Source of the DNA: Polytrichum commune
Taxonomy: Eukaryota; Streptophyta; Polytrichopsida; Polytrichales; Polytrichaceae
Direction: 5' to 3'
NCBI GenBank assembly: GCA_950295325.1
Contig: OX485807.1
Coordinates: 5,894,501 to 5,958,500, forward strand
Length of the DNA stretch: 64,000 nt
Shown: in pieces, positions 3,983-59,196 of the stretch
How positions within the stretch are numbered: position 1 is the first letter of the stretch
How the letters are laid out: each line of letters starts with the position of its first letter
The notes under the pieces: generated by a model
The model's input: the letters and a program-made list of their open reading frames with translations, nothing else
The model's database searches: none
Told to the model about the DNA's origin: nothing
Program-made: the position numbers and the translations under genes

Positions 3983-5275
3983 TCATATGATAACTACATT
4001 TCCGTTATACTTCGTCGGACTTCCACTGATGCTTGGTCCTCCACTCTTCGTCACAAACGACGCGCCATTCCGACTCGCCTTCAAGCTCTGTGCTCCTAGG
4101 GTCCATGGAACGGCAGTCAGAGTAACGCCTGCTTGCGCAGTGAAAGAAGTGGTCTGACCTCCGCTCGTGACGGCGATGTCGGCAGCGCTGGCGAGGAATG
4201 ATGCCACGTAAACATCGTCTTTGAGGTACTGATAGTCTAGGGGAAGAGGAAGAGTATCCGAGGAGCCGTTCGTACCTCCCGGTTGGAGGCGGTAGAAGAG
4301 GTAGACTTGTTCAGCAGATGCGTCTATAGTGAGGCTTGTGGCGCCGGATTTGTATGCTTTGATGAAGAGGCTGGCAATGGTTAAGAAGCCCGAGTGGTCA
4401 AGAGTGTCCCAATAAGCAGTAGGGACAAGTTCCGTGGTATCTGCGGGGCCTAGGTAGCTGCTCTCGCCCCAGTCGTTCCAGGTGATGAGCTCGATGAAGT
4501 CTGGTTGGAGAGCGAGGAGATGCTGGAACCGGGAGATGAAGATGTCCTGGTCCTGTGCATGCGCCCAGTTGTCGTTGGCGTCAAACCGCTTGAAGTACCA
4601 GGGGGCTATGGCCGCCATCCATTTCTTGCCGTAGGTTGTTCGAGCGGAAGCGTAGTCTTCGTCCGTGGTTGATTCATCGCTGGCAATATTAGTCGGGTGA
4701 ATCCAGGTGAAAATGCCATCATACACCGTGTTAAAGATGCTGGAGGCAGCGTCAGACAGAGTGCCTGGGAGGAACATAGTTTGGACCGTGATCTTGTCAA
4801 GAACATCGGTTTTCCATGACCAGCTAGGATCATTGGTCTGGAAAGAGGATAATAGCATTTTGTTATCGACGTAGAGCTGTGCAGAGTTGGAGGCGTATTT
4901 GTTAGCAAGGTCGACACACATGGAGGCATTTGGGACAGACGTCGTGTCGAAGGAAATGAAAACCGAAAAATTATTAGCCTGCGCTGCCGAATAGATATCG
5001 GCAAGATAGCCTTGTTGCACGTTCCAATCGACGCCGTAGCCGCCATAGTTGAGCGCGAAGGCATCAATTCCAGCGGCCTTGGCGCTCGTAATGTCATTTG
5101 TGTAGTTGTTCCCGACAGGACGGGTCAGGACCATGTAGTGCGCGAAGACAAGACGGCTGGTTGAGCTCTGCATCAGCTGGCGTCCATGAAATTGAGATGA
5201 TAAAATTGGCCGTGCTAAAGAGACAAGTGGAGCACCAAACATCGCCAAGAGCACACAAAATATTTTCAACCTCAT
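3983..5275 (-). CDS. Secreted alpha-1,3-glucanase, glycoside hydrolase family 71 (fungal type)
   Basis: Single-exon gene encoding 430 residues. The frame stays open further upstream, but the ATG at 5275 begins a clean signal peptide (MRLKIFCVLL, then a hydrophobic core ending near VSLARP), so I prefer that start. GH71 hallmarks appear in order: FAHYMV (about 44-49), the segment AKAAGIDAFALN (65-76), VFISFD (105-110), QLYVDNK (133-139), APWYFKRF (224-231) and TWNDWGESSYLGP (265-277), followed by a C-terminal beta-rich region of about 130 residues. The family hydrolyses alpha-1,3-glucan, a fungal cell-wall polymer, and is known mainly from fungi. The enzyme should be secreted. The lack of introns, more GC-rich coding sequence and AT-rich plant-like flanks suggest an acquired gene. 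A role in defence against or interaction with fungi is inference. Family assignment is firm; origin and substrate are not tested. Confidence 0.9.
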   Translation of the reverse strand: MRLKIFCVLLAMFGAPLVSLARPILSSQFHGRQLMQSSTSRLVFAHYMVLTRPVGNNYTNDITSAKAAGIDAFALNYGGYGVDWNVQQGYLADIYSAAQANNFSVFISFDTTSVPNASMCVDLANKYASNSAQLYVDNKMLLSSFQTNDPSWSWKTDVLDKITVQTMFLPGTLSDAASSIFNTVYDGIFTWIHPTNIASDESTTDEDYASARTTYGKKWMAAIAPWYFKRFDANDNWAHAQDQDIFISRFQHLLALQPDFIELITWNDWGESSYLGPADTTELVPTAYWDTLDHSGFLTIASLFIKAYKSGATSLTIDASAEQVYLFYRLQPGGTNGSSDTLPLPLDYQYLKDDVYVASFLASAADIAVTSGGQTTSFTAQAGVTLTAVPWTLGAQSLKASRNGASFVTKSGGPSISGSPTKYNGNVVII

Positions 5276-5406
5276 CTTCCGTTCGTTGCCGTTAAGATCA
5301 AAAAAAATATGAAACACAATCTCCGAGTTTCGTAATGGTGCAGTGTAACTTAACACAGATTCAAGAACCACGAACTCATGTGTCTTATTGCACTGCTCTT
5401 GCCAGG

Positions 5407-25164: not shown

Positions 25165-26180
25165 ATTTCTTCTTCGAGGTTGCAAAGATTCCAGCAGTTA
25201 CGCAAAGGTCAGGTCCTTGGAGGGCTAGTCTGGTGTTTGGGTGATGTGTTTGAAGAGTTGAGTTTGAGTTTTATTGATGGGTTGTTAGTACATTTGCGTT
25301 GATGAAATCAGTAGAGCTTGGGGCGATTACCGACCCAGATCACTTATAGAGGTAAGCGAGGCCTTTTGGAGACTTGGTTGTGTGTGAATTGGAGCATGAT
25401 TGAAGATTCTGGAGGGTGGGGAAACATTGGGTTTGTAGAGGTAGCAGCCTGAGGAGAAGATTCATTGGTTTTTCTTGCATAGATTCCAGATTTTTGTGAA
25501 TTGTTAGTGGTGATGAATTCAATAGAGATTACTCAAGACTTGAGATTAGCGGCCGATAAGAGAAGCGAGGCCTTTGGAGATTGATTGTGTGCCAATTGGA
25601 GCCCGATTGAAGGTTGTGGGAGGTTGGGGAAAATTTGGGTTTGCAAAGATTCTTCTCGCAGTTCCGTCAAGGGCGGCAGCTTGAGGAGAATATTCACTGT
25701 TTTTTCCTTGCGTAGATTCAAGACTTTGCGAATAGTAGTGATGATGAATTCAGTAGCAATTAATCAAGATTTGAGATAACCGGCCGGCAAGAGAAGCGAT
25801 TCCTTTGGAGATAGATTGATTGTGTATCAGTTGGAGCCCACTTGAAAGTTGGGGGAAAAATTGGGTTTGCAAATATTCTTCCCGCAGTTACGCAAAGCCG
25901 GCAGCTTGAGGAGAATATACCCCTCTTTTTCCTTGCGTAGATTCAAGACTTTTGTGATTAGTTGTGGTGATGAATTCATTAGTAATTATCTAAGACTTGA
26001 GTTAACTGGCCGACAAGACAAGCGAGACCTTTGGAGATTGATTGATTGTGTGTCAATTGGAGCCCAATTAAAGGTTGGGGAATTGTTGGGTTTGCAAAGA
26101 TTCTTCTCGCAGTTCCGCAAAGGCGCAGCTTGAGGAGAAAATTCCCTTAAAAAAAAAGTAAATTTTTTGCATAGAGTTTC
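25165..26180. repeat. Tandem array in the 5' region of the LCAT4-like gene, about 207-230-bp unit
   Basis: Four clear units and a partial one share AAGCGAGGCCTTTTGGAGA or a variant (starting near 25356, 25563, 25793 and 26020), then TTGGAGC..GATTGAAG, then TTGGGTTTG, CAGTTC or CAGTTA CGCAAAG, GCTTGAGGAGAA and TTGATGAATTCA-like ends. The array lies 470-1480 bp upstream of the start codon and probably forms part of the 5' UTR, a 5' UTR intron or the promoter. Some units contain AGGTAAGC, a potential splice donor. Confidence 0.8.
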
Positions 26181-45214: not shown

Positions 45215-45660
45215 CTCATCTCAGCATTGAGGTTTTCGCAAGACATAGGCAGAGTACTGGGGGGAGTTTCACTCATAACGGGGTTGATTCGAGAGAGAAC
45301 GCATAGCAATCGCTAAATTACAGCTGGTCTGTTGCCAAAACCTTTGTTTTCTCTGTCTTATCAACTCAGCATTGGGGTTTTGGCGGGGGAGAGGCAGGGG
45401 GTTGATACGAGAGAACACACAGCAGTTGCTAAGTAATCTGTTGTCTGTGTCTCAGCTCAGCATTGTGGTTTAAGTAGGACAGAGGCAAAGTTTTGGGGTA
45501 TTTTCTCTCACATCTGGGTTGATACGAGAGACATCACACAGCAATTGCTAAGTTAGAGCTGGACTAGTGGGAACACGCCTCTGTTTCTGTTTTGTCTCAG
45601 TGAGGTTTTGGTAGATAGACAGCGTTTTGGGGAGAGTTTCGGGTGTGGGTTTGGGCAAGT
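45215..45660. repeat. Tandem array in the KDSA 5' leader, roughly 90-145-bp unit
   Basis: Four units share CTCAGCATTG[AGT]GGTTT (last unit CTCAGTGAGGTTTTGG), then GACA.AGGCA, GTTTTGGGG or similar, TTGATACGAGAG and CACAGCAATTGCTAA. They start near 45221, 45366, 45457 and 45595. The last unit runs up to the coding region, so the array forms the 5' UTR and core promoter area of KDSA. Confidence 0.7.
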
Positions 45661-45691
45661 GGTGGACTTCTTCGGAGTAAGTAAGGTAGCG

Positions 45692-46579
45692 ATGGCGGCC
45701 TCACCGAACTTCTCCGCGTTCTTCAAGGAGCTGACACTCGCGGAGCCCTTTTTCGTGATGGCAGGGCCGAATGTGATCGAATCCCCCGAGCATTGCCTAA
45801 AGATGGCACGCCAGATCAAGTCAGTCACCGACGAGCTCGGACTCAAGCTAATCTTCAAGTCGAGCTTCGACAAGGCGAATCGCACCTCAGCAGCCTCATT
45901 CCGGGGGCCAGGCATGGAGGAAGGGTTGAAGGTGTTAAGATTAGTGAAGGAGACATACAACATTCCCATCGTCACAGACGTGCACGAATCCTGGCAATGT
46001 GAGGCGGTGGGGGAAGTAGCTGACATAATTCAAATCCCTGCGTTCCTGTGCAGACAGACAGACCTTCTGGTCGCAGCTGCCAAGACAGGGAAGGTGATTA
46101 ACATTAAAAAGGGCCAGTTCTGTGCTTCCTCGGTGATGAAAAACTCTGCAGATAAGATCAGGCTTGCGGGGAACCCTAATGTGATGGTGTGTGAGAGAGG
46201 CACCATGTTTGGCTACAATGACCTAATTGTGGACCCGAGGAATTTGGAGTGGATGAGGGAGTCTGGTGCGCCTGTGGTGGCAGACATTACTCATTCCTTG
46301 CAACAACCTGCGGGGCAGAAGCTGGAAGGTGGGGGAGTTGCGAGCGGTGGATTGAGGGAGCTTATTCCTTGCATTGCTAGGACATGTGTGGTTGTTGGTG
46401 TGGATGGCATTTTTATGGAGGTTCATGATAACCCCGCGAATGCACCATGCGATGGACCCACGCAGTGGCCGCTGCGTAACCTCAAGAGCTTGCTTCAGGA
46501 GCTGATGGATATTGCGAGAGTCACAAAGGGCAAGGAGAAAATGCACATTGATCTTACTCCTGTTGAGGAAGACTTCTAA
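45692..46579 (+). CDS. KDSA: 3-deoxy-8-phosphooctulonate synthase (KDO-8-phosphate synthase)
   Basis: Single-exon gene of 295 residues. The enzyme condenses arabinose-5-phosphate with phosphoenolpyruvate to form KDO-8-phosphate, which plants need for the KDO of rhamnogalacturonan II. The TIM-barrel motifs are intact: FFVMAGPNVIES (20-31), FKSSFDKANRTS, SFRGPGM, PIVTDVHES, IIQIPAFLCRQTDLL, NIKKGQFCA, ERGTMFGYNDLIVD, VADITHSLQQP and GVDGIFMEVHDNP. Asn27 sits where metal-dependent bacterial enzymes carry a cysteine, so this is the metal-independent class usual for plants. The frame is open 28 codons further upstream, but the ATG at 45692 matches plant homologues (MAAS...) and the upstream part looks like repeat-derived leader. 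The absence of introns is notable because I recall the Arabidopsis genes as intron-rich. The end of the gene is copied twice downstream. Confidence 0.97.
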   Translation: MAASPNFSAFFKELTLAEPFFVMAGPNVIESPEHCLKMARQIKSVTDELGLKLIFKSSFDKANRTSAASFRGPGMEEGLKVLRLVKETYNIPIVTDVHESWQCEAVGEVADIIQIPAFLCRQTDLLVAAAKTGKVINIKKGQFCASSVMKNSADKIRLAGNPNVMVCERGTMFGYNDLIVDPRNLEWMRESGAPVVADITHSLQQPAGQKLEGGGVASGGLRELIPCIARTCVVVGVDGIFMEVHDNPANAPCDGPTQWPLRNLKSLLQELMDIARVTKGKEKMHIDLTPVEEDF

Positions 46580-49092: not shown

Positions 49093-52000
49093 ATGCCAGG
49101 ATCACATGAGTCTGCAGAGCAGATAATAGCTCCAACCTTGACAGCAAGTATGTGGATGCAGGAGCCGGTAGGAGACGAAGAAGAAGAAGACGAGCATAGT
49201 GGCGTGATTGGTAGCACATTAGCAAAGTGGGAGACGAAATGGTTTACACGACAGGTATGCGAAGGAAGACGGAGACGCTCGACATACAGTCTTCCAGACT
49301 TCCTTCTCTCAAGGTCAGTGGCTCCCGAGTTGCGAGTGGAAAATTGAGGAGGAGCACTGTGCTGAGTGATGGAGCATCTGGTGCAGACAAAGTGAATGAG
49401 GTATCAGTGGTTGAGAGTAATGAAGCAGGTGATGGGAGTGACCAAGTTGATAGGGTTAAGAATCAGGGTGTTGCTAACCCTAGCATTGAAGGCCAGGAGA
49501 ATCATGTCGATCACAATGACAAAGGTGAAGCTTCTAGTGACCAAGGATCTGGGAAGGAAAAGCTCAGAAGCCTGCAGGAATCAAACCAAGGTGGGACATT
49601 CATTCCTGGCATGCTGCCAACATTTCATCAGAATGTCAGAATCTAAATTTGTACCCCACCATTTTTCCTATTTTTTGAGCTGATTCTTTGAGGAATTGCT
49701 TTGATCACAAGCAATTTGAGAAGGAACAATGATGTGGCTATGATGCAGAAGCAGGTGGTGGTATCTCCACAAGTAGAGAGCTATCCTTGGATGAGCTATG
49801 TCAAGAAAGCAATGACTCAGAGGCAGAAGCCAGTGCTCATGATGAAGGGAAGAATAATGCTGAAATGGATCCAAAAGCAGTCAAATTAGGAAACATTTTG
49901 GATCCTTGGGAGGATGAGTGCATGAAATATCTTGAGCGGGAGCCAGAAAGCCGGGCAAGGCTGCAGTACGAAGTTCGTGTGATTGTGATCTCACCTTTGT
50001 TTGAGCTCGGAGACCGGAAGGCATCATCGTTCACCACCCTGTACGAGAAGAAGTTCAAGAAGCCAGTGGAGAGCTCGGGATTTAGCAATGCAGCAAGGCT
50101 ATGTCGAGCTATGCCCCATGTCATCGAACGAACCCTTCTGAATGAGAGAGGCATGCTTCAGCTGGTGGATTCCTCCAAAAACCACAGAATTGTAGCAGGA
50201 ATTCGGTCTGGGCTAAGACGGGTGGTATATGATGTGTTGAAGCTGCATCCAGATGGCCTCACGTTTGATGAAGTTGAAGAAGAGTGTTCGAAGCTCTTAG
50301 GGTTACCCCTTGATGATGTTCTTCTGGAGAATGGATACGACACCCCCAATGTGCAAGGCATGCTGAGAGACATGATTGACATAGCTTTCATCAATGAGAC
50401 TGGCATGGATGATCGTGTCTTCTTGTCCAAGAGAGCTGAGGATCCAGCTCTCACAGATGGAGTGTGCATTGGGAGGTCGGAGAGGGTCATGTCTTCGTGT
50501 AAACCTGACTTCGACAAGTTGGGCGAACTCAGTGAAGTCCAACGACATCCAACGAGTGCCCCTGAAGGAGCGGAGCAGGATGTGAAAGATGGTATATATC
50601 TGAACCCACAACTCATTATTCTCCTGCTCATAAAATTTCTCAAAACTTCCATACCAGCTGTTTGCTCATCCTTGTAATTGCACATACCACCTGTAATTGC
50701 ACATCCTTGGAACTTGGATTTACTAGGACTAGTACCCCATGCGGAACTGGCACTAGTAGCCCGTGCCCAAAAGATTCAGCATCAGAAAATGAAAAAGGAA
50801 ACAAGGGATCCACGTCATGACAGAAGTGAAGTATGGCTCCAGTGCAAACTTGTGATAAAAGTGCAAAGGAGAAATCCTCTTGAGGAAGGTTGTTCTCTTA
50901 TGTGTGTATGCACACATACCTGCCTTCCATTTCTCAAGCATCTAAATAAGTGTTGCAGTGACTAACCTACTTGAAGGCCGCCTTCCGATCTCAAACATGT
51001 AACCTACTTGGGAATCATTTCTCCTACTCGCTATGGGCAACTATCCACATGTCGGTTCGAGGCACTTCCTCCCAGTGGTTCGCAAGGTTAAATGAACTGG
51101 CGTCCAATAGGAGATTAATTTTTGCTCCACTTTTAATGCCCCTATGCAGTAAAAAAGAACCATCTCTCACAATGGGACAACCATGGTGAACTGAAGCTGC
51201 AGAGTATTCCGAACATCAGCGTCACTGGAAAATAGCTTGAGTAAAAACAAAACCTGTGAATTCACGACAAATGTTGATGTGCATTTATAGGTTCTGGCAG
51301 GTCAGGACCAGGCGGGATGTCTTTTGATGAGCTAGCAGACCTACAAATATTGAGGGCATCAGAGGTGAGATTATTCAGTACCTCCCCACGATCAAGTGAA
51401 GCATTGGACAGTGAAGAAACTGAATTCCCATGGTCCGGTGAAGACTTAGCTCGACAAGTGAGGCTGCGTCTCCGATTGCTGTTGGCTCTCCACAATGAAG
51501 GGCAAGGTACAGAGCTTTCCAAGCTAACGTTAAGATACAAGATGATGTTTTCGCAGGCACTAGACTTACAAACACTCGGATTTGCCTCCATTGAAGCGAT
51601 GGCAAATTGCTGGGATGATGTTATCCAACAGAAGCCTGCCCAACCAGGATGGGCATTTTCAGTGGACACTGCCGAGAATCGCCGAGTTTTGAATACGGTA
51701 GCCACCGGATTACGGTCTGCCATTTTCACCATCTTGCTTGCCAAGTACCCAGATGGGCTAAGCCCTCTAGACCTTGTGCACACTTTGGAGCAATCTCTGT
51801 CATCCAAACTGTGGGAAATTCTGAGTGCAAATGCGTACCTGTTTGATGACGTGAACATGACTCAAGAGGTTCTGTCCAACGAGTCCAATGACTTTCAGCT
51901 GGCGGATTGCCGGGAACTCAAATTGCTCCTCCATGACATGGATGATTTTGTTCGCTACGGGTGTCGAGAAGATGGTACTTTGGTGGTGAAACTCCGAGAT

Positions 52001-53161
52001 GGAGATTTTCCTCTTCTGGATTTACTGGACTGTGATGCTGCTATTGCTCCTGGAGATGGCAATTCTCCTCCAGCTAATTCCTCCGAAGCATCCACATCGC
52101 AAGAAGTCAGTAGCAGGCTTGCAAGCTTGCTAACCCATCCCAAAACTGGTGACCCTGGTTCAAGCCCCTCGTGCACATCCGAAACCAACTCTCCCTTCAG
52201 CCGAAGACAATCCTATGATGTGCAAATCAAAGGTGAATCTGAGGAAATTGCACAAGCACCATTTGTGAGAAATGTTAAAAAATTACCCAGGTCATGGCTG
52301 CCTCCTCCAAGGCTGGAGCATGAGATCAGGCTTATACTGGGATCCCAAGATTTCACTGAACTTGGCGTGCCCATAGAAACTTTCCTGTCTGTGTACAAAC
52401 AGAAAACTGGACATGCTTTGGACATAGGCCAATACGAGACACTGCAAGTGCTTGCAGAAGCCTTACCGGAAGTCATCGACCAGGATGTGTTATCATCTCA
52501 AAATCGCATGAAGCTCGTGCAATCTCCCAAGAATATGCGGTTGCTGTCAACAACAAAAGCGGGGTTAAGGCAAGTTTTGTTCTGGGCGTTGCTAAAGAAC
52601 CCTGGAGGAATCTGGGCTGAGCTTCTTGAAGGCTGGTACCAGGATTTTGCAGGGACCACACTGTCCAGCACGCTCTCCAGACATGGATATGAGAAGAAAC
52701 AAAGCTCACCACTCTTTGCAGTTTTTCAATTTCTTCGTGACATGTCAGACATTCTGAAACCGCACCCTCAAGACCCCCGGATTAGTCTCTGGGATGGAAA
52801 TTTGGAAGATCCTGTCATTGAAGATGCCACATTGCTTAACCTCTCCCCCGAAACAATTCAGTACGACCCGTTACGAGAAGACTACGAAAATACAAGAAGT
52901 AGTGCCAACCTGAGCCTTCACATGGCCAGCAGTGGGTCCAGTGGAACCTTTGATGACGACGTCGACGAGGAACATTCAGATTGTGAGAAAGACTTAAACT
53001 CATCAAAAGATAATGGCAATACTAATGAGCATCTGAACTGTCCTAAGGACCATGCTTACTCTGCATCATTGGAGGATCTGTCAGACAATAGGAAAGAATG
53101 TGCAGTCTTAAGATGTATGGTAACCCCACATGCTAAAGTAACTGACGAGAAAGTTCTTTAG
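49093..53161 (+). CDS. Protein with repeated LOTUS/OST-HTH modules
   Basis: Proposed exons: 49093-49254, 49314-49590, 49755-50591 and 51291-53161, giving 1048 residues. The last two introns are solid: both are phase 1 and both resume in Gly/Ser-rich sequence (GGGISTSREL; GSGRSGPGGM). The first join uses a very short 59-nt intron and is uncertain, so the N-terminus may differ. Three similar modules of about 170 residues can be seen (about 215-385, 465-640 and 764-925). Each has a LOTUS-like winged helix (FTTLYEKKFKKPV; LTLRYKMMFSQAL; FLSVYKQKTGHAL) followed by a second one starting IRSGLRRVVYDVL, LRSAIFTILL or LRQVLFWALL. LOTUS domains bind RNA, including G-quadruplexes, or helicases. I see no NYN nuclease or zinc finger. 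Linkers are acidic and serine-rich. The family call is fairly sure; the biochemical role is unknown. Confidence 0.8.
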
Positions 53162-54104: not shown

Positions 54105-57100
54105 TTATCCCATTGTTGACCTATAGTGGTCATCATCTATAGTGGAGTATACGAAGCCCTCATTCACCAAGAACTCAACAGCATCCCTGCACAATACAGG
54201 TTCATCTATTAGGAATCCTGTGGATATAGGCATGAAGTGAGGTAATGGAAATGTTGGGGGAGATTCAAGTCTTGCATGATCAAAATAGTTTCTAATGCCC
54301 TATTACATACCTGACTTGCTGAGGGGAGTATCCAACCACTCTCTGGACAACCTCATTAACATGAAGCCCTTGCTTAATTTGACTGCAGAGAGAACAGCAA
54401 ATGTTCGAATTAAAAATCAATGTCAGGAAAACATTTGATTATTTGAACTTGTTGGCTGTTTGTGCATATTTCAATCCGCAACTTCAATGGCATTCATCCT
54501 AGTGTCCTACAATCGATGCATTTGCAAACATTCAAAAGCCAGGAGAGCTTATTAGTGTAATGAAATCCTAGGATCACATCTATCCTATGACATCCACATT
54601 CAATGCTCAAGAAGCTGATGCAACATCCACAGAAAATAACCAACAGGAAAGTAGGAATATTACAGGCTAAATGGTTCTTCAAATATAGCATGCACACGTC
54701 TTCGACAGTCATCCATGCTTCCACCACTTGCAACAGATGCAACATGTGGAGGTGGCATATACTGCATTAGTAAACATACCAAGACATATTAGTGAATAAG
54801 GACACCCTTTTCCAGTCCCAAAATCTCAGAAAGTCCTAAACCACAAGGCATAAGAAAGTATTGGATCTATGGTGGTGAATTTCCCAAAAAGGTAAGCTCA
54901 ATTTGATATGTTCCTTTATTGTAATACGATATTGTAATCGGGGTAAGGAAAGACATCTCCTTTTCCTTTTCAACTCCTCCAGACCTTCTCCCATCTAGAA
55001 ATAATGTGAATGTAATTGTGATGAATTTCAGGTTTGTGCGGTGAAAACTGACTAGCTGCTGGAAAATGTCACATAAAAAGCCTTTACGGGTTTTTATTTT
55101 GGTTGAGGAAACAACACCTGAATGTTGTTATTGAATCCAGTGTGCCGATAGGTACTCGTACCCACAGGTGTAGGTGGTCTTCCAATTGCTGGCATCTATG
55201 TCAAATATCAGAAATCATTCCATCAACATCCCATCTACTTCTAGCTGTAAGTAGATGTCCATCAAAGCTTGCAATCAAACTAAGTTCGATGTGATCAGCT
55301 ATATCGCATGAAAAGTTAGCCAGACCTCCTCCCATCTTAAATCAATGCGCATGTAATTATTTCATGTTTGTGCAGCGAAATTTGGCTAGCTTCTGGAAAA
55401 TGTCACACAAAAAGCCCTTAATGTTTTTTTTTGGTTGAAAAAACAACACCTGATTGTTGTTGTTAAATCCAGTTTGCCCATAGGTACTCATGCTCACAAA
55501 TGTAGGTGCTGGTCTGATTGCTGGCACCTATGTCACATATGACAAATCATTCCATCAACATCCCATCTACTTCCAGCTGCATTTCTTGTCCATCAAACCT
55601 TGCAAAAAACTAAGTTCGATATAATCAGCTATATTGGATGAAAAGCTAGTCAAACCTTCTCCTATCTAGCATTGATGCAAATGTAATTGATGATGAATTT
55701 CAGGTTTGAGCAGCCAAAAATGACTAGCTTCCGGAAAATGTCCCACAAAAAGCCCTAAATGGGTTTTTGGGGGCCCGAGGAAACAAATACCTGATTGTTG
55801 TTGTTAAATCCAGTTTGCTCATAGGTACTCATGCTCACAGGTGTAGGTGCTGGTCCCATTGCTGGCACCTATGTCAAATATGACAAATTTTTCATCAACA
55901 ACCCATCTATGTCCAGCTGTACTCTTTGATGCTTGCAAACAAACTAGCTTCAACATAATCAGCTATCCAATTCCAGAATATATCTACACCAAATCCAGCC
56001 AGGAGGTTAAGTAGTCACCCGTGTCTGCATGTTAGAAAGATGGACGTAGATTACTTCCAGAAAATGGAAGGTGAGCTCGTTAAAATTGGTGATGGGTCTG
56101 CAGACGAATCCATCATTATTAACCTCAGAAGTATGATCAACAGAGATCTTGCGTCATGTCAATTATCAGAAGTTTCGACTGTGTCAAATTCCTGGTTTAC
56201 TATACATGTGCAACAGCATTTAAGGGGTGAGATTTCAGAATATTTCTTGAAGTGCCACATCTGAATTCTCAATATTAGTCTACAGTTTAGTTGTGCAAAG
56301 AGGTAGCCAATACTTACTGGTACATGGTTTTTAATTGGAACTTGGAAAAACTCGAAGCAGATAAGTTGTTGAAGACTGACCTTACAGAAAATGCAACGAC
56401 ATGGAGCTTATTTTGAAATGTCCGAAGATGACCATGAACTCGAACATACATTCCATTCCTGGAGCGCAACCCAACAAGCTCTTTCATTATGCAACACTTT
56501 ATACAGAAAGTCATTACCGATCTCTACTCTAGAAAACAAATGATGCAGCTTATTGGACATGAATGAAAGGAATATACTGAATATACTGAACTGACATGGG
56601 TTGCACTATCCAAAAGACAATTTGGAAGTTGTACTCACTTCACGGCCTGCATCTCTGTGAACTCGTGTGAATCATGACCATCTATCCTGCACGAAGTACC
56701 ATGGACTTGTCAGCCAAAAGAATGAAATGAAAGAACAAGCAATTGGGTCACTCATCAGGTTACAAGAAATTGTGGAGAATGAGGACTATTATCAAAGTGC
56801 ATGAAGTTTACTACTACATGGCTCCTAGTAGTAAGTAACAATTAATGTGCCAATGGACAGTGGAGTTAAGAATGTATAGATAAATGAACTTCTATTATGC
56901 AATGATTAAACAGTTGAGGGTTCCAGAAAAAACTAACCATCTCTTGACCTGAATTCGACCAGTTGAGTCATCCAGAAAGAAAGATGTGTCTATATTTCTC
57001 TCTTCCTTGTTGTGGACCATTCCAACCAGAGTCACCTGGGCATTTGGGAAGAAAGAAAAATTAATGTCACTAGAGCTCTAATTGTTTGCCGTTCAACACA

Positions 57101-59196
57101 GGTCAGTAGATAGATAGATAGATAGCCTTTGAGACAATACTCAGATCAATATGGACACTCTAAATGAATTCACAACTCCTCAATTCAAAACTCAAAGTAA
57201 ATATATATATACTCTACTAATAGAAACTGGAGACTAAGCTTGCAATTTCTGATGGTGACAAGCAGCTAAGAGCTGGAAGGAGGGACAATATAATATCCAG
57301 TTTTACACACGTACATTATTCACATCAACTCCATCGATATAGAAAATGTCATCTCCAGGCCTTTGAGTGGCTTGACTAATCATTTTGACTGTCAATGGTT
57401 GCAGCCCACTATCTTGTGACCCTCCCCGCTGCAAAAATCAGAAATTAGCAGGTACATAATCTGCAGTCCTGTATATACATAACGAGGGAGTTGCAACTGC
57501 TTTGAACTTTTAATATCAAGTTCTGTACTCTCTGCATGGCCGTATTTCCTTACAAAAATTCATACAAGTCAATACACGGATTTTTTATGCAAGAGAATAA
57601 GAAAGATCTACCTACTAGGCATCAAGAATGCCCCTATTATCATGATTTTCTGGGTGATTGATTTTTTTTTGAGGACCTCTATTAACCGGATATCACTTCA
57701 ACATCAAATCGATAGCCTCTAACCAACTTTTACATACGACCCACTGAATGAGCGTTTATAATACGCTGTTGAGAATTTTGTGGTGCACCTAATCCCCAAA
57801 AGAACAATATATGATTCTATTGCCACCAATTGAGCTAACATGAGTGCACATCAGGTCGATCGAAGAAGCTGTAAAGAAAGGAATACTCCGGTATCTTCTG
57901 AAATGGTACTCAGGTGTTTTGCAAAATTTTTTGAGCAGAAACCTGGAGTTAACGAGTGGCCGTTTTCAGAGCGGCCTAGAATGTTGACGACATCCTTAAT
58001 CAACACATTAAATAAAACTTGCATATGACCCACTGAAGGAGCGTTTATTATATGCTATTGAGAATTTTTTGGTGTACCTAATATTCAAAAGAAGAATGCA
58101 AGATCCTCTTGCCACCAATTGAGCTAACATGAGTGCCGACACATCAGGTCGATCAAAGGAGCTGCAAAGAAGAGCATGCTTCAACATCTGCTGAAAACAC
58201 TACTCGGATGTATTGCAATTTCAGAGCAGAAATCAGAAAGACGTTTAAAACTCCCAAGAAGTTGACGACATCCTTACTGATTACCACATTACATACACTT
58301 ACATCTGACGCACTGAAGGAGCGTTTATTATACGGTATTGAGAATTTTGTGGTGTACTTAAAACCGAAAAGAAACATGTATGATTATTTTCCAGCCAATT
58401 TAGCTAATACAATTGCCAGCACATCATGTCGATCGAACGAGCTGCAAAAGAAGAGAATGCTCCAGTATCTCGAAAAATGGTACTCAGATGTTTGGAATTC
58501 CAGAGTGAAAACCTGGAAGAAGTTTAAAATTCCCAAGAAGTTGACGACATCCTTCATTACTAGATTACAAAGACTTACACATGACCCACCGAAGGAGCGT
58601 TTATTATGCGCTATTGAGAATCTAATGGTGTATCTAATCCCCAGAGAGAAAATTATATGACTCTCTTGCTACCAATTGAGCTGACATGAGTGCCGACACA
58701 TCAGGTCGAACGAAGGAGCTGCAAAGAGGAACGCAAAGAAGACCATCCTCCGACATCTTTTACAATGGTGCTCTTTGCAATTTCAGAACGGAAACCTCAA
58801 AGAAGCTTTCAATTCTAAAGAAGTTGATGACATCCTTAATTACCACATTACAAATACTTACAAATGGCCCACTACAAAGAAGAGAAGTGCTCCAGAATCT
58901 TCACCTTAACATGGTACTCAGATGTTTTGGAAATTCAGAGCAGAAACTTGAAAGAAACTTAAAAATCCAAGGAAGTTGACGACATCCTTACCAATACAAC
59001 CTTAATCACCACACTTCAAAAGCCAAAGACAATCTTTAAATTCACAATTTAGCATGAGGAGGAGAAAGAATTTCACAATTACCCCTGTTCCACCTCCAGA
59101 ATTAACGTCAGAAGATGGGATGGTCGCAGATTGCGTAGGCATGAACCCACCACCTGCGAACAACATGGATCCATCGCCTCCATGGTCGAAGTACAT
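54105..59196 (-). CDS. RPA2: Replication protein A 32-kDa subunit (RPA2) with a triplicated exon
   Basis: Exons in transcript order: 59083-59196, 57315-57428, 56938-57035, 56639-56686, 56381-56458, 56019-56097, then the cassette exon in three copies (55791-55868, 55449-55526, 55118-55195), then 54664-54761, 54311-54382 and 54105-54186. All have GT-AG borders. With one cassette the protein is 286 residues, close to plant RPA2; with all three it is 338. RPA2 is the middle subunit of the single-stranded-DNA-binding trimer used in replication and repair. Features are the Gly-rich N-terminus (AGGGFMPTQS), the OB fold (QPLTVKMISQATQ, IDGVDVNNVTLVGMV, FFLDDSTGRIQVKRW, NGMYVRVHGHL and VVAFSVRPITNFNELTFHF) and a C-terminal winged helix (IKQGLHVNEVVQRVVGYSPQQV ending in DDDHYRSTMG). 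The start ATG at 59196 gives the expected MYFDHGGDG opening. A GGCGGGA E2F-like core lies about 510 bp upstream. Confidence 0.95.
54960..55950 (-). repeat. Triple tandem repeat carrying an RPA2 exon, about 331-342-bp unit
   Basis: Each unit contains one 78-bp exon copy plus surrounding intron. The flanking text repeats too: AATGTCACATAAAAAGCC or a variant, ATTCCATCAACATCCCATCT, AAGTTCGATGTGATCAGCTA or a variant and ATGTAATTG. Exon copies start at 55791, 55449 and 55118 on the + axis, a spacing of 342 and 331 bp. Each encodes 26 residues: [VM]PAI or VPAM, then proline-rich sequence, a STY core and TGFNNN[NI][NI]Q-type ends. Confidence 0.95.
57680..58990. repeat. Tandem array in RPA2 intron 1, about 276-290-bp unit
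   Basis: At least four units share GACCCACTGAAGGAGCGTTT or a variant (starting near 57737, 58027, 58307 and 58583), CTATTGAGAATTTT, ACATCAGGTCGATC, GAGCTGCAAAGAAG and AAGTTGACGACATCCTTA. A partial fifth unit ends near 58990. On the + strand (antisense to RPA2) one frame stays open for 175 codons across two units (58133-58660). No family was recognised for it. Confidence 0.85.

Follow-up and report, generated by a model that had tools for sequence, protein, structure and literature searches.

A tandem exon duplication is not to be equated with mutually exclusive splicing (PMC9741552). For the fly X chromosome, 6 of 1705 genes were found to carry constitutive or differentially included neighbouring exons that share length, frame and homology, and predictions of mutual exclusivity in flies were, according to the authors, rarely overturned; the same text names intron retention, and not exon choice, as the commonest form of alternative splicing in plants (PMC3228551). 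If flies are a guide, these figures would make exclusivity likelier than we grade it below.

Here we describe a tandem exon array in Polytrichum commune, found in a window of 64,000 nucleotides (the whole stretch of DNA analysed). The array is far beyond chance. It lies in the gene for RPA2 (RPA32), a core subunit in replication and repair, and we confirm that this gene carries three copies of the exon for the linker between the two domains of its protein. As to what the copies do, a constitutively longer linker appears the most likely outcome, a variable one is possible, and a cluster of mutually exclusive exons appears the least likely of the three.

An RPA2 gene with a triplicated linker exon

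The identification of the gene as RPA2, made in an initial sequence-only reading, holds. The spliced model comprises twelve exons without a stop codon (Table 1), and its 338-aa product has Pfam matches above the cut-off to tRNA_anti-codon (OB fold; residues 77-153, 39.3 bits) and then to RPA_C (winged helix; residues 239-331, 51.7 bits), i.e., an OB fold followed by a C-terminal winged helix as in RPA2/RPA32. Both matches are also present in a 286-aa form with one linker exon. Searching PDB with phmmer yielded 12 distinct sequences with E of at most 0.001; apart from 4gnx, which is labelled uncharacterized protein, each is named RPA32 or an equivalent. In the alignment with 2pi2_A (E 7.9e-33; query, the 286-aa form), the segment encoded by exon 7 lies after the part aligned as OB fold and before the aligned winged helix, i.e., in the linker, where it had been placed before.

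Table 1. Coordinates of RPA2, its linker-exon array and the other long-period tandem arrays of the window
Feature	Position	Strand	Basis
RPA2 (RPA32) coding sequence, from the start codon in exon 1 through the stop codon	59196-54105	minus	stop-free spliced model, Pfam, PDB
RPA2 exon 1	59196-59083	minus	spliced model
RPA2 exon 2	57428-57315	minus	spliced model
RPA2 exon 3	57035-56938	minus	spliced model
RPA2 exon 4	56686-56639	minus	spliced model
RPA2 exon 5	56458-56381	minus	spliced model
RPA2 exon 6, end of OB fold, donor CGG/GTGACT (slash, splice junction)	56097-56019	minus	spliced model, RPA32 alignment
RPA2 linker exon 7a, 78 nt, phase 0/0	55868-55791	minus	spliced model
Intron 7a-7b, 263 nt, in-frame stops if retained	55790-55528	minus	spliced model
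RPA2 linker exon 7b, 78 nt, phase 0/0	55527-55450	minus	spliced model
Intron 7b-7c, 254 nt, in-frame stops if retained	55449-55196	minus	spliced model
RPA2 linker exon 7c, 78 nt, phase 0/0, most diverged of the copies	55195-55118	minus	spliced model, divergence
RPA2 exon 8, remaining linker and start of winged-helix region	54761-54664	minus	spliced model, PDB alignment
RPA2 exon 9	54382-54311	minus	spliced model
RPA2 exon 10	54186-54105	minus	spliced model
Tandem array, unit about 332 bp	54980-55966	minus	self-comparison, TRF
Non-coding tandem array in RPA2 intron 1, units about 280 bp	57730-58725	minus	TRF, DNA search, self-comparison
Tandem array, 226 bp x 3.1, 81% matches	25444-26146		TRF

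All three tandem exons of 78 nt that had been proposed were found on the minus strand. In the spliced model each of them has an AG acceptor and a CAG/GT donor, stands in phase 0 at both ends and is open, and the encoded peptides (VPAMGPAPTPVSMSTYEQTGFNNNNQ, VPAIRPAPTFVSMSTYGQTGFNNNNQ and MPAIGRPPTPVGTSTYRHTGFNNNIQ) differ from one another. The neighbouring boundaries given earlier, the end of exon 6 at 56019 and the start of exon 8 at 54761, are also correct; the middle copy had been started at 55526, one base away from its actual start at 55527. The frame is kept at any copy number, with 0, 1, 2 or 3 copies giving 260, 286, 312 or 338 aa. The earlier statement that one copy gives the normal length agrees with the only yardstick at hand, a paralog of 290 aa with a single linker exon.

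TRF delimits the array at 54979-55921 (period 332, 2.8 copies, 80% matches, score 1208). In each unit the exon is flanked by the 3' part of the intron before it and the 5' part of the intron after it, as is normal for a tandem exon duplication. The exons are adjacent, homologous and equal in phase and length, with intron duplicated alongside, and their derivation from a single ancestral exon is borne out by the one further RPA2 locus found in the assembly, which has just one exon there, in matching phase. A genome-wide DNA search with the middle unit gave 3 matches, all at the RPA2 locus. All introns around the copies are GT-AG, all four would bring in-frame stops if retained, and the two between copies are of ordinary length for this gene, whose introns other than intron 1 measure 124-356 nt.

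Tandem arrays are a usual place for assembly errors, and the extra copies could in principle be an artefact of this kind. We consider this exceedingly unlikely: differences between copies amount to 14.5-23% of aligned intron and 6-21% of exon, which exceeds read error or haplotype difference, and the array is embedded in a contig of 52.9 Mb. An intron divergence of 0.16-0.27 between copies likewise argues against a recent doubling in the assembly.

A paralog with a single linker exon

A protein search of the same assembly returned 19 matches, divided between this gene (12) and a single locus on contig C3 (7). The paralog there is split into ten exons whose phases match those of the triplicated gene, and its linker is encoded by one exon of 99 nt (phase 0/0) in the same place as exon 7; self-comparison of the paralog gene revealed no internal repeat. 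The two proteins agree at 64% of residues outside gaps, with synonymous change saturated. Identity reaches 74% in the OB fold and 67% in the winged-helix region and falls to 38% in the linker exon, so the linker is under loose constraint anyway. Common to all four linker peptides (three copies and paralog) are an N, the last Q and, within a TPVxxSTY-like stretch, T, V and STY; copy 7b reads TFV where the others read TPV. An RPA_C match at C3:7653175 was rejected as another RPA2, being below the cut-off (18.9 bits) and absent from the protein-search matches, with no evident RPA2 exon in the 801 of 3210 bases read.

Divergence and selection among the copies

Distances (K) between homologous introns are 0.257 for a-b, 0.273 for a-c and 0.161 for b-c; for the exon they are 0.068, 0.206 and 0.244, respectively. 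The introns thus group b with c, and the exon groups a with b. Sites at which a single copy differs are distributed in the same way (introns: 32 in a, 14 in b, 17 in c; exon: 1, 3 and 12; Fisher p 0.0003 for a versus c). Specifically, a and b differ at 5 of 78 exon sites versus 49 of 227 intron sites (Fisher p 0.0018), and none of the exon changes falls on the 16.8 synonymous sites, an outcome with a chance of about 0.027. We read this combination as 7a-7b gene conversion: homogenisation over about 100 bp would be the simplest account, the alternative being strong nucleotide-level constraint on both copies.

The intron distances of 0.16-0.27, set against the saturated dS between the paralogs, date the triplication to after the gene duplication and suggest that it is much younger than that split. 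If synonymous sites change at 5 to 9 x 10^-9 per site and year, the age of the copies would come to roughly 9 to 27 million years.

Comparing synonymous with nonsynonymous change (NG86), we counted 5 nonsynonymous and 0 synonymous differences for a-b, and obtained dN 0.199 and dS 0.228 for a-c and dN 0.221 and dS 0.304 for b-c. In two of the three pairs (a-c and b-c) dN is therefore close to dS, and purifying selection on the amino acids is not visible beyond the open frame, in a test to which 78 nt give little power. In simulations of neutral decay, all three copies stayed usable with p 0.025 on the intron tree, 0.16 with intron branches halved and 0.12 with exon distances. Given dN near dS and these moderate values, we rejected strong purifying selection on the linker exon copies. 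The evidence of selection for keeping three copies is weak at best, and depending on branch lengths the copies may persist by luck.

These results bear on the possibility that a single copy is routinely used while the others are fading relics of duplication, with frames open by chance. In addition to neutral survival being only moderately unlikely, the a-c and b-c dN values lie near dS and near intron K (0.273 and 0.161), and the one-copy form is close in length to the paralog. However, none of the three copies has a stop, a frameshift or a lost AG/GT, indels number 4-6 events per pair in aligned introns and zero in exons, and no single copy shows an obvious silencing defect. Considering this, we regard relics as rather unlikely.

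Splice sites and the choice between copies

The energies of donor duplexes with U1 are -7.2, -6.7 and -6.7 kcal/mol for 7a, 7b and 7c, compared with -0.9 to -8.0 kcal/mol for the other eight RPA2 donors and -8.3 for the linker-exon donor of the paralog. A branch-point-like YTNAY lies at -26/-27 upstream of each copy. By contrast with the remaining sites of the gene, the acceptors of all three copies read TAG (CAG in 8 of 8 others) and none of their donors has a G at +5 (5 of 8 others do), which makes skipping of individual copies plausible.

Such skipping could go further, with the copies acting as (semi-)independent cassettes and linkers of about 18, 44, 70 or 96 residues being made in appreciable amounts, in a mix that perhaps changes with tissue or stress. 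We see variable inclusion as possible but doubtful. Every combination of copies keeps the frame, the acceptors and donors are by these motifs weaker than most others in RPA2, and the copies differ in what they encode, all five a-b differences being nonsynonymous. On the other hand, alternative splicing in plants does not mainly take the form of exon skipping (PMC3228551), and the U1 energies of the copies are within the normal range of the gene.

The sequence-only reading had also likened the array to mutually exclusive exon clusters. The likeness stands for length, frame, homology and intact splice sites, but it does not extend to any feature that would enforce exclusivity: frame or NMD, steric spacing, a mix of U2 and U12 sites and competing structures were considered, and none was found. 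Frame-based exclusion was rejected because 78 = 3 x 26 is frame neutral, and steric exclusion because 263 and 254 nt between copies are ample spacing; no U12-type site was seen around the exon copies. For RNA structure, we scanned exon 6, the unique parts of introns 6 and 7, and exon 8 for one docking site that could pair at an equivalent position in each of the three units. The best energies (-12.5, -13.5, -12.8 and -12.7) were matched or beaten by 4, 2, 7 and 4 of 12 shuffles. Among 24 longer duplex comparisons, a weaker test given its single-base shuffles and long duplexes, the lowest z values (-3.0, -2.7, -2.4 and -2.3) belonged to different docks and copies, and none was low for all three. 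With no common site above shuffled controls, a docking-selector structure was rejected.

Use of exactly one of 7a, 7b and 7c, which would swap the sequence of the linker at constant length, is thus improbable in our judgement. Two copies together should carry no structural penalty in a disordered linker, which also speaks against it. In its favour, the homology of the three exons and their equal length and phase are the very features used for prediction in PMC3228551, duplication with adjacent intron is a proposed route to competing RNA structures (PMC6071210), and plants do have such pairs, e.g., MAF1/FLM (PMC3266260). A protein repressor is a possible mechanism of exclusion.

The reading that we favour, and in which we place about half of our confidence, is that all three copies are spliced into the main mRNA to give the 338-aa protein. 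Unequal tandem duplication, occurring at least twice, would have copied a segment of about 332 bp containing the linker exon and intron on both sides, so that each copy came with its own 3' and 5' splice sites and every intron between copies was normal and self-contained. Since the exon has 78 nt in phase 0/0 and encodes linker rather than a folded domain, added copies would break neither frame nor fold. AG/GT and frame are intact in 3 of 3 copies, and the three-copy form retains its RPA_C and OB matches, both in favour of full inclusion; occasional skipping would yield 312, 286 or 260 aa.

Possible consequences for the reach of the winged helix

Measured from the last OB residues to the winged-helix region, with ends chosen by eye from the PDB alignment, the tether would span about 96 residues with three copies instead of about 44 with one. 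A polymer estimate with an assumed 4-Å persistence length gives 54 Å versus 37 Å rms. The human winged helix is carried on a flexible linker of ~30 residues, which is thought to set the presentation of UNG2 near a junction (PMC8053108). Judging by the polymer estimate, a longer linker would alter the reach of the winged helix, widening it for repair partners. More tentatively, splicing of the three exons might vary both the length (about 18 to 96 residues) and the sequence of the tether, and in this way adjust the reach of RPA for repair proteins. If true, an RPA2 with a doubled or adjustable linker would offer a ready-made natural test of whether tether length matters. From the viewpoint of genome evolution, the array is an ordinary tandem duplication that landed by chance on a frame-neutral linker exon.

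Genome context and neighbouring genes

The assembly comprises 407.8 Mb, of which 406.1 Mb are in seven contigs. The window contains three tandem arrays with a period of 100 or more, and the RPA2 gene itself holds two separate ones; the unit of its intron 1 array has 4 matches genome-wide, all of them there. Twelve sampled 10-kb pieces of the genome contain three arrays of period at least 100, in 2 of the 12 pieces. With such arrays present elsewhere in the genome, an exon is expected to be caught in one now and then.

Several other observations were made in this assembly. An intronless 462-aa ORF at 3986-5371 (minus) matches Glyco_hydro_71 (E 1.9e-84), a mainly fungal family, and has 6 matches at 5 places in the assembly, one with several stops; a fungal gene transfer into the plant lineage is possible. 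Another intronless ORF (45608-46579, plus, 323 aa) belongs to the DAHP_synth_1 family and presumably resembles plant KDO-8-phosphate synthase, whose genes usually have introns. A 614-aa ORF at 51317-53161 (plus), with a weak OST-HTH/LOTUS match (24.2 bits), is convergent with RPA2 and ends about 0.9 kb from its stop codon. Elsewhere in the genome there are two LEAFY-type DNA-binding domains that differ by one residue in a short motif (MRHYVHC on contig C1, MRDYVHC on contig C7), at a position which we take to separate specificity types between land-plant groups.

Comparison with known systems

Among the matches listed for the RPA2/RPA32 literature (titles and starts of abstracts), no report of a duplicated RPA2 linker exon was found; the triplication is real and, among those matches, previously unlisted. 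Like Dscam-type docking-selector clusters (PMC6071210), it is an array of homologous exons with duplicated intron, but one of only three copies and with no common docking site above shuffles. The plant pair MAF1/FLM likewise consists of short, in-frame neighbouring exons, and in RPA2, too, a choice would alter a region of protein contact; exclusivity in MAF1/FLM, unlike that of the RPA2 copies, is supported by reads (PMC3266260). The C3 paralog shares the place of the linker exon, its phase 0/0 and the matching exon phases, and differs in having one 99-nt exon and no repeat. The array also corresponds to the tandem exon duplications of PMC9013439 and PMC9741552: here as there, adjacent homologous exons of equal length and phase are accompanied by flanking intron. 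What sets the RPA2 case, at this stage a genomic observation, apart from them is its setting in the disordered linker of a plant replication factor, with three copies in units that match at 80%.
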